A stretch of 64,000 nucleotides of DNA from contig JAQWGK010000050.1 in the NCBI GenBank assembly GCA_029238255.1, positions 124,001-188,000 of the forward strand. Direction: 5' to 3'. The notes under the pieces are model-generated. The model was not told the origin of the DNA, ran no database searches, and saw only the letters and a list, made by a program, of their open reading frames with translations. The stretch is from Porticoccaceae bacterium. GTDB taxonomy: Bacteria > Pseudomonadota > Gammaproteobacteria > Pseudomonadales > Porticoccaceae. Below, piece by piece: positions 55,916-59,667 of the stretch (position 1 is the stretch's first letter; every line of letters begins with the position of its first letter). The translations under genes were made by a program, and so were the position numbers.

Positions 55916-58708
55916 ATGGAAAATATGGACACTAAAACTCCGCTGATTCTCGTTGATGGATCCTCCTACCTGTACCGCGCCTTTCATGCGTTGCCGCCGC
56001 TAACTAACAGCAAAGGTGTGCCCACCGGAGCGGTAAAAGGTGTGATTAACATGATGCGCAGAATGCTCAAGGATTACCCCGAGAGCACGGTAGTGGTGGT
56101 GTTCGATGCCAAGGGCAAAACATTTCGCGATGAAATATACAGTGACTACAAGGCTCAGCGTCCGCCAATGCCCGACGATCTGCGAGTACAGATAGAGCCA
56201 ATCCACAATATTATTAAAGCCATGGGCTTGCCGATGCTGATTATTGACGGCGTTGAAGCCGATGATGTTATTGGCACCTTGGCCGTGCAGGCCACAGCAG
56301 CCGAGCAGCCGGTGGTTATTTCCACCGGTGACAAAGATATTGCCCAGCTAGTGAATGAACATATCACTCTGATCAACACCATGAACAACTCGACCCTGGA
56401 TAGGGCAGGGGTGATTGAAAAATTTGGTATCCCACCAGAGTTGATTATCGATTATCTCGCCCTGCTGGGCGATAAGTCCGACAATATTCCCGGAGTGCCC
56501 GGTGTCGGAGAAAAAACTGCTCTCGGTTTACTGCAGGGAATAGGGGGGCTGGATGATATTTATGCACGCCTCGACGAAGTCGCAGGCCTCGCCTTCCGCG
56601 GTGCCAAAACCATGTCACCAAAACTGGAAGAGCACAGAGAGCTTGCCTACCTCTCCTATCTGTTGGCAACCATCAAGACCGATGTAGAAATGCCTCTGCA
56701 ACTGGACGAGCTCAAAAACGGCGAGCCAGATCAGGCAGAGCTTTTGAGTCTGTTCAGAGATATGGAGTTTAAAACCTGGATTGAGGAAGCTTCTTCAGCC
56801 ACGGCGGCAAACGGCACCGCTGAGCCTAAGCAGTCGGCTTCGGAAAAATCAGAATCTGATGCAACTAGCGCAGCAGAGGTCGTGGAAAAGGAAGAGATCA
56901 ACAAAGATTATCAAACCGTTTTAACCGAAGCAGAGTTTAATCTGTGGATTGATAAGATAAAGTCTGCCGAGCTGGTAGCCGTGGATACCGAGACAACCAG
57001 TCTCGATTATATGCGTGCCAAATTGGTCGGAATCTCGCTGGCAGTTGAGCCGGGAGAGGCCGCCTATATCCCCTTTGGTCACGACTATCTGGGTGCCCCA
57101 GAGCAGTTATCTCAAGAGTTTGTACTGGAAAAAATTAAGCCGCTGCTAGAAGACCCCGCAATCGCAAAAGTGGGTCAAAACCTTAAATATGATATGGGTG
57201 TACTGGCCCAGCACGGCATTGAACTGCAGGGTATCGCCTTTGATACCATGCTCGAATCCTATGTCCTCGACTCCGTGGCCACCCGTCACGATATGGACAG
57301 TCTGGCACTAAAATATCTCGATCAAGAGACCATTAAATTTGCCGATGTTGCCGGCAAAGGCGCAGCACAAATTACCTTTAATCAGGTGCCTTTAGAGCAG
57401 GCAGGCCCCTATGCTTCCGAAGATGCCGATATAACGCTGCGTCTGCATAACCAACTCTGGTCGCAGGTCTCCGCTGAGGCATCTCTTGCCAAGGTCTTCA
57501 ATGAAATTGAACTGCCATTGATTGAGGTGTTGTCGAGAATTGAGCGCACCGGCGCGCTGGTCGACGACACGCTGTTATTTCAGCAGAGTCAGGAATTATC
57601 TGAGCGATTGGCGGAGCTTGAAACTCAGGCATGGGATCTAGCCGGCCAGCAGTTTAATCTCGCCTCCCCCAAGCAGCTTGGGGAAATAATGTTTGAAAAG
57701 CTCGAAATTCCGGTGCTCAAGAAAACCGCCAAGGGAGCGCCTTCGACAAAAGAAGAGGTGCTGCAGGAATTGGCGCTGGACTACCCGCTGCCAAAAGTGA
57801 TTTTAGAGCACCGCGGTTTAGCCAAGTTAAAGTCCACCTATACCGACAAACTACCGGTAATGATCAACCCCGAAACCGGGCGTATTCACACCTCCTATCA
57901 TCAGGCGGGAACCGCGACCGGACGGCTTTCATCCTCCGATCCCAATCTACAGAATATTCCAATCCGCACCGCGGAGGGCCGCCGTGTTCGCCAGGCATTT
58001 ATCGCCAAGCCGGGCTCTGTGTTGGTGGCTGCGGATTACTCTCAGGTCGAGCTGCGGATTATGGCTCACCTTTCAGAAGATCCAAGTCTGTTAGCCGCGT
58101 TTAACGCCGGTCAAGATATTCACCGCGCCACAGCGGCAGAGGTATTTGGTGTCGAGACTGACGCGGTAACCACTGAACAGCGGCGCAGCGCCAAGGCCAT
58201 TAACTTTGGTCTTATCTACGGGATGTCAGCCTTTGGTCTGGCCCGTCAGCTGGGGATTAATCGCAAGCAGGCCGCTGAATATATCGAGCTCTATTTTGCC
58301 CGCTATCCCGGCGTGCAAAACTATATGAATAATATTCGCTACACCGCCGCCGAAAATGGTTATGTCGAAACCTTCTTTGGTCGTCGCCTCTATCTGCCAG
58401 AAATAAATTCCAGAAACGGTATGCGTCGTCAGGCTTCCGAGCGCACGGCGATTAATGCGCCAATGCAGGGAACCGCCGCCGATATTATTAAGCGAGCGAT
58501 GATTTCCGTCGATAGTTGGCTGCAAAACAGTGACTTGGAAAGCCGCATGATTATGCAGGTACACGATGAGCTTGTACTGGAGGTGCCGGAGTCAGAACTG
58601 GAAGCCGTTAAGCAGGGGCTGATGGAGCACATGGAATCAGCCGCCGAATTGCTGGTTCCACTGGTGGTGGATGTAGGTGTTGGGGATAACTGGGACGAGG
58701 CTCACTAG
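55916..58708 (+). CDS. polA: DNA polymerase I
   Basis: Repair polymerase that processes Okazaki fragments and fills excision gaps. The 930 residues include three domains: an N-terminal 5'-3' exonuclease ([38 protein letters not shown]), a 3'-5' proofreading exonuclease with [12 protein letters not shown] and an intact acidic site, and the polymerase domain. The last has [39 protein letters not shown] and [13 protein letters not shown]. Start ATG 55916 or ATG 55925 (MDTKTPLIL). The candidate sRNA and engB lie downstream, as in Pseudomonas. Confidence 0.98.
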
Positions 58709-58811
58709 CAGTTTTCTTGTCTTTGGGGCAGTAAAAATAATCATTAATGTGAAGATGCAACGGCACTAGTCAGCAAGGTTTAAAAGTTTTTTCACTTTTT
58801 TGTAATTATTT

Positions 58812-58840
58812 TTGAACTATCTGGTTTTGGCCTGTCTTAC
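58812..58840 (+). promoter_or_regulatory. Possible promoter of the polA-engB small RNA
   Basis: TTGAAC (58812-58817) is followed after 17 bp by TCTTAC, a modest sigma-70 match. The same bases also read GAACTA-15-TCTTA, resembling a sigma-E/AlgU-type promoter. The sequence alone cannot decide. Confidence 0.35.
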
Positions 58841-58842
58841 TA

Positions 58843-58949
58843 AGTGCAAGACATGATTGCTTACTCTCCCCCAAATTAAGCAACCTGCAAAGCTAAACTC
58901 CCAAGCAAAGCAACGCATACCCCGGTCCATCTTGGATCGGGGTTTTTTT
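58843..58949 (+). ncRNA. Candidate small RNA at the Spot 42/ErsA locus
   Basis: The 296-base gap between polA and convergent engB has no supported protein gene. It contains a possible promoter, then about 75 bases with C-rich, unstructured-looking segments (TTACTCTCCCCCAAATT, AAACTCCCAAGC), and a strong terminator at 58920-58949. The same gap holds Spot 42 in E. coli and ErsA in Pseudomonas, both Hfq-dependent regulators. C-rich loops are typical of sRNAs that pair with Shine-Dalgarno sequences. The 5' end is a guess from the promoter. The call rests on position and architecture, not on sequence identity. Confidence 0.5.
58920..58949 (+). terminator. Rho-independent terminator
   Basis: The 10-bp stem CCCCGGTCCA-TCT-TGGATCGGGG (one G-U pair) is followed by seven T. 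It is 211 bp past the polA stop, too far for a simple polA terminator, and fits the 3' end of a small RNA. Confidence 0.9.
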
Positions 58950-59004
58950 ATATCTGTTGATAAGGCGTTTGAATTAGAGGAGAAGGTAGAGGGTTTAAGC
59001 GAAA

Positions 59005-59667
59005 TTAAGCTTTGGCTGGGCCGCTGGAAGAATCACTGGAAGGATCGACAAAGTCGGCACTCAGCCAATGGCCTAAAACGGATTCTAGTTCTGGAAGACC
59101 CTGTTTCTTGAGCGAAGAAAAGGTTTGCGCACTCATTAGAGTGCAGCCGGGATCCATATCGCGCAGATGTCGCTCGACCATCAGCAGGGAGTTCTGAGCG
59201 GGACCGCGCTTAAGCTTATCCGATTTGGTTAACAGAATATGAACGGGCAGTCCGGCCTGTGCCGCCCAGTTAAGCATCTGCAAATCAAACTCCTGAAGCG
59301 GATGGCGAATATCCATGAGCAATACCAGTCCAGCCAGACTCTGACGCATCTGCAGATATTCAGCGAGGTGTTTATCCCACTCCCGTTTCATGGCGATGGG
59401 CACTTTCGCATAACCATAGCCGGGCAGGTCGACTAGGCGTTTGCCGCCATGCAGCTCAAAGAAATTAATCAGCTGTGTTCGACCCGGCGTCTTACTGGTT
59501 CTGGCCAGGCCTCTATTGCGAGTCAGAGTATTTATGGCACTGGATTTACCGGCATTTGAGCGGCCGGCAAAGGCAATTTCACAGCCGCTATCAGCCGGAC
59601 ATTGCTTCAGAGAGGGTGCGCTAGTCAGAAATGAGACGCGCTTATAATCAATATGATTCGAATCCAT
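59005..59667 (-). CDS. engB: Ribosome biogenesis GTPase EngB (YihA/YsxC)
   Basis: Essential GTPase in large ribosomal subunit assembly. The 220 residues contain G1 [14 protein letters not shown], the conserved [14 protein letters not shown] switch I, G3 DLPGYGYA and G4 [11 protein letters not shown]. It is convergent with polA and the candidate sRNA, and divergent from the cytochrome c4 gene. The C-terminal tail [13 protein letters not shown] is low-complexity. Confidence 0.96.

Follow-up and report, generated by a model that had tools for sequence, protein, structure and literature searches.

A predicted small RNA gene with a sigma-E-type promoter between polA and engB in the Porticoccaceae

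The authors who described sX13 raised the question of whether small RNAs are also encoded at the polA locus in other bacteria (PMC3771888). In this analysis the question is considered for a Porticoccaceae bacterium, in a window of 64,000 nucleotides (the whole stretch of DNA that was analysed), where the original prediction had proposed a Spot 42/ErsA-like small RNA between polA and engB. The claimed position, which is that of Spot 42 and ErsA, was correct: polA ends at 58708 and engB ends at 59005, leaving a gap of 296 bases (58709-59004). By polA, the nearest relatives that have names are Porticoccaceae MAGs, and the bacterium is a marine gammaproteobacterium of Porticoccaceae type. The locus contains the following features.

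55916..58708, + strand: polA, the upstream neighbour and synteny anchor
58814..58839, + strand: sigma-E/AlgU-type promoter, conserved in the genus copies and the sole such match in the window
58845..58949 (approximate), + strand: predicted small RNA of ~105 nt, its start deduced from the promoter and its end from the T-run
58846..58850, + strand: conserved 5'-end GCAAG, from the genus alignment and at the same place in Microbulbifer
58857..58883, + strand: probable 5' hairpin with stem TTGCTTA/TAAGCAA (58857-58863 and 58877-58883) and loop CTCTCCCCCAAAT
58864..58872, + strand: C-rich loop motif 1, CTCTCCCCC, a candidate pairing seed in which CCCC is invariant in alignment A1
58897..58902, + strand: C-rich motif 2, ACTCCC, mostly unpaired, reading CTCTCC in sister subgroups
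58919..58949, + strand: intrinsic terminator with an 11-pair stem, a 3-base loop and 7 T
59005..59667, - strand: engB/yihA, the convergent neighbour, a ribosome-assembly GTPase gene

A promoter scan gave no match to a sigma-70 promoter. Instead, the gap contains a sigma-E-type element with a -35 sequence GAACTA (58814-58819), a 15-base spacer and a -10 sequence TCTTA (58835-58839), so that the promoter-like element of the original prediction is present and its type is sigma-E/AlgU, not sigma-70. The pattern occurs once in the 64-kb window, and because 39 of 100 shuffled sequences also have a match, this occurrence in one sequence alone is unremarkable and is not proof of a promoter. The element gains weight from its fixed conservation, as GAACT...TC with a spacer of exactly 15 bases is found in 33 of 33 aligned copies from the same genus and the flanking DNA, including that further upstream, diverges. 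The promoters of relatives read GAACTT-N15-TCTAA, -TCAAA or -TCCAA, often with an extra G in front. RpoE/AlgU is encoded in the genome (308 bits against a cut-off of 236); reading its surroundings by eye, a divergent gene lies upstream of rpoE, an anti-sigma-like gene lies downstream, and a GAACTA-containing site stands ahead of rpoE itself. Judged from sequence, sigma-E-type control of the RNA gene is likely. Separately, an inverted repeat, TGTCTT...AAGACA (58833-58853 of the window), spans the predicted start; it is conserved in most members of the window's subgroup and absent from sister subgroups, and could be an operator or a chance occurrence.

The terminator consists of the hairpin ACCCCGGTCCATCTTGGATCGGGGT (58919-58943) with its T-run at 58943-58949, and its C-rich stem begins 211 bp 3' of polA. 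One terminator-like site was found in the 700 bp scanned against 0.8 expected, indicating that the significance of the terminator does not come from scanning a single sequence. Comparison does support it, because the stem is kept genus-wide and consensus folding of the alignment revealed changes on both sides in 8 of 12 consensus pairs. The terminator that had been claimed at this distance past polA, with its seven T, is accordingly real, and the C-rich segments claimed upstream of it, CTCTCCCCC and ACTCCC, are both present.

The predicted fold of 58850-58952 begins with the 5' hairpin, continues through a stretch of loose structure that contains ACTCCC, and ends in the terminator; none of 200 shuffled sequences was as stable (z -3.95). 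In RNA form, the loop of the 5' hairpin is CUCUCCCCC and the open segment is ACUCCC. The 5' stem varies by subgroup (TTGCTTA/TAAGCAA, TGCAT/ATGCA or ATTCTC/GAGAAT), always with CCCC in the loop. Consensus folding of the full alignment did not show this hairpin, because its arms do not align between subgroups. Compared with shuffles in a stability test where only the C-run was held unpaired, it gave a modest mean z of -1.36 over copies that are non-independent, and because of this modest stability the 5' hairpin is rated probable, not proven.

Using the gap as a query, blastn returned strong same-genus matches in 14 genomes, the window's own included. A covariance model was then built from 24 copies, and the window, being a member of this training set, matched it with 96.8 bits at 58840-58952. 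Matches of at least 38.9 bits were located downstream of polA in 40 of the 43 assessable same-genus genomes (16 of these 40 were outside the training set). Weak matches elsewhere in the order (E about 1e-3) were often terminator-only and were left out of these counts. Three of the 43 genomes had no recognisable copy in the covariance search (L133, L149 and L152), which argues that the RNA gene is not essential. L133 still has a GAACT element and a terminator, as though its copy were decaying.

Could the locus hold only the terminator and 3' untranslated region of polA, with no independent RNA? In the stretch scanned, no terminator-like site other than this hairpin follows polA, and for this reason it would also end polA transcripts; moreover, the terminator scan found no second terminator ahead of the RNA on the polA side, and read-through from polA could therefore contribute further transcripts. 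Against this reading, the promoter is conserved with fixed spacing and stays with the RNA when the locus is rearranged. The promoter-RNA unit is intact ~0.5 kb from polA in L134 and L142-L144, where it lies behind inserted DNA that in L134 includes an opposite-strand ORF, and it is found ~1.25 kb from polA in G016. In a sister genus (g31) the RNA is duplicated in tandem, each duplicate with its own GAACT element, and an unlinked copy in a further genome likewise has its own promoter-like element. Because the promoter is kept when the unit is distant, duplicated or unlinked, the RNA is not just the end of a polA transcript, and we regard the polA-terminator explanation as highly unlikely. An independent small-RNA gene is very likely.

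Several of these loci have further features. The insert of L134 contains an ORF of ~130 codons on the opposite strand, with the look of a GFA-type enzyme, between polA and the RNA, and the start of this insert is common to L142-L144. The tandem copies of the sister genus lie between polA and engB at 2173-2282 and 2361-2468 of L219, corresponding to C1:643172-643281 and C1:643360-643467 of G286, where each has its own GAACT-type promoter element; G343 and G125 have tandem copies too. The second, unlinked copy is in the same-genus genome G019 (L213 1507-1608, corresponding to C1:254706-254807); its promoter-like element reads GGAACTT...TGTCCTA and its middle part differs.

The region might alternatively encode a small peptide, either from the short frame ATG ATT GCT TAC TCT CCC CCA AAT TAA (58853-58879) or from an 84-codon TTG frame (58857-59111). 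In the window and several close relatives the short frame is uninterrupted, but among the closest relatives it is shifted by insertions of 1-2 bases that follow the C-run and one of them lacks the ATG, and the long frame crosses the conserved terminator and diverging DNA. A coding function is thus extremely improbable.

With good confidence, we read 58814-58949 as an independent gene whose product is a small regulatory RNA acting in trans, most likely as an envelope-stress-induced repressor of translation. The gene, its sigma-E-type promoter, its terminator and its C-rich motifs are supported by comparison; actual transcription, RpoE dependence, use of Hfq, targets and repression are what we infer, taking the stress induction and pairing steps from ErsA and sX13. 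Under envelope stress, RpoE/AlgU would be released and transcription would start ~6 bases past TCTTA, ending at the hairpin-T7 terminator. The loop CUCUCCCCC and the segment ACUCCC could then base-pair with target mRNAs at G-rich sequences in or near the Shine-Dalgarno element, and this pairing would lower their translation by antisense repression. The U-tail is a likely Hfq site, and an hfq gene is present in the genome. By analogy, repression through pairing near ribosome-binding sites is somewhat favoured. In a crude target search, GGGGGAG near ATG was not enriched genome-wide (9 matches against 15 for a reversed-pattern control), and consequently no target is supported.

The layout of the locus extends beyond the genus. 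Outside the genus, a sigma-E-type motif follows polA in 36 of 74 named loci, compared with a mean of 0.87 in shuffles and with 1 on the reverse strand; these loci were selected for similar polA and some come from related species, so they are not independent. Among one-per-family genomes the motif follows polA in 8 of 26, against a shuffle mean of 0.33. All parts of the layout together, namely a sigma-E promoter, a C-rich stretch that is not in the arms of the terminator stem, and a terminator, follow polA in 28 of the 98 loci from beyond the genus; 60 shuffles gave a mean of 0.017 and a maximum of 1. In Microbulbifer the Porticoccaceae model matches full-length at the syntenic place, weakly (E 0.02-0.3), and in Pseudomonas-type loci it touches the terminator only. 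A sigma-E-driven, C-rich small RNA after polA may, tentatively, be an old gene shared by much of the Gammaproteobacteria, namely Pseudomonadales and lineages such as Woeseiaceae and Sedimenticola. Were this so, both ErsA and the Porticoccaceae RNA would descend from that gene with rapid divergence, retaining its location, its promoter and its C-rich seeds but not its sequence.

The relationship to the known families was assessed with Rfam covariance models. The Spot 42 model (RF00021) scored 14.1 bits (E 1.8) against a cut-off of 80, and the ErsA model (RF01719, Pseudomon-1/ErsA), for which at least 50 bits was required for membership, found nothing in the window up to E 10, nothing in the rest of the genome to which the window belongs and nothing in any Porticoccaceae genome of a 245-genome sample of the order. 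The ErsA search works as a control, since it recovered ErsA in Pseudomonas and Halopseudomonas gaps with 79.6-135.6 bits; in the same sample, matches above cut-off were confined to one family. Because neither model matches, the RNA falls outside the ErsA and Spot 42 sequence families. What stands of the label ErsA-like is the position, the promoter type and the C-rich character; the covariance check that had been proposed went against membership of either family. Other Rfam families gave chance-level matches only, e.g. PyrR, KCNQ1OT1_3 and anti-hemB. In another family of the order, sub-threshold RF01719 matches occur in pairs ~200 bp apart (G209 C64:68185-68505 and G231 C1:7304805-7305128), possibly representing tandem ErsA-like RNAs.

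The RNA might nonetheless share an ancestral gene with ErsA, and perhaps with Spot 42, having diverged too far for the models to recognise it. The same gap, the ErsA-like sigma-E-type promoter, the C-rich stretches and the intermediate-looking Microbulbifer copies, weakly matched at the right place, are in keeping with such descent; the failure of RF01719 throughout the Porticoccaceae, the terminator-only contact of the Porticoccaceae model in Pseudomonas-type loci and the placing of the Pseudomonas C-rich stretch in the terminator loop, which is not so here, count against it. Shared ancestry is possible, if rather doubtful; as it concerns descent, it is compatible with the preferred explanation, a free-standing gene for a stress-induced regulatory RNA.

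ErsA is encoded in the polA-engB gap, depends on AlgU and is aided by Hfq (PMC8575079, PMC8395346). The Porticoccaceae RNA lies in the same gap, has by its sequence a promoter of the same sigma-22 (AlgU) type (GAACTA-N15-TCTTA), and shares C-rich unpaired stretches and a terminator of similar make. It differs in length (~105 nt, compared with 132 nt for ErsA) and in promoter spacer (15 bases, compared with 17), and whereas Pseudomonas loci have a C-rich stretch in the terminator loop, here that 3-base loop is not C-rich and the C-rich motifs lie upstream, the first in the 5' hairpin loop. As compared here, the RNA is thus a separate sequence family whose position, promoter type and seeds are like those of ErsA, and it would be expected to function in a similar way. 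Spot 42 of enterics and Vibrio likewise occupies the gap downstream of polA and is of similar length; in contrast to Spot 42, the RNA described here has C-rich motifs and a sigma-E-type promoter and no CRP-like site was found, the best match having 6 of 10 consensus bases.

These comparisons add a further polA-adjacent RNA family, absent from Rfam, in marine Porticoccaceae, and tie the polA locus to a sigma-E-type promoter. The RNA can serve as an outgroup when the origin of ErsA is traced, and it provides defined elements to test experimentally. sX13, an RNA of about 115 nt encoded 175 bp past polA and reported only in Xanthomonadaceae, acts without Hfq, its C-rich loops repressing targets that are G-rich (PMC3771888). 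The Porticoccaceae RNA also lies downstream of polA and has C-rich motifs, but these are a single apical loop and an open segment, whereas sX13 has three stems with three C-rich apical loops. The alpha-r7 RNAs of alphaproteobacteria, as described in PMC3771888, are similarly polA-adjacent with C-rich apical motifs, and the comparison as a whole suggests that sequence is lost sooner than position, promoter type and C-rich seeds.
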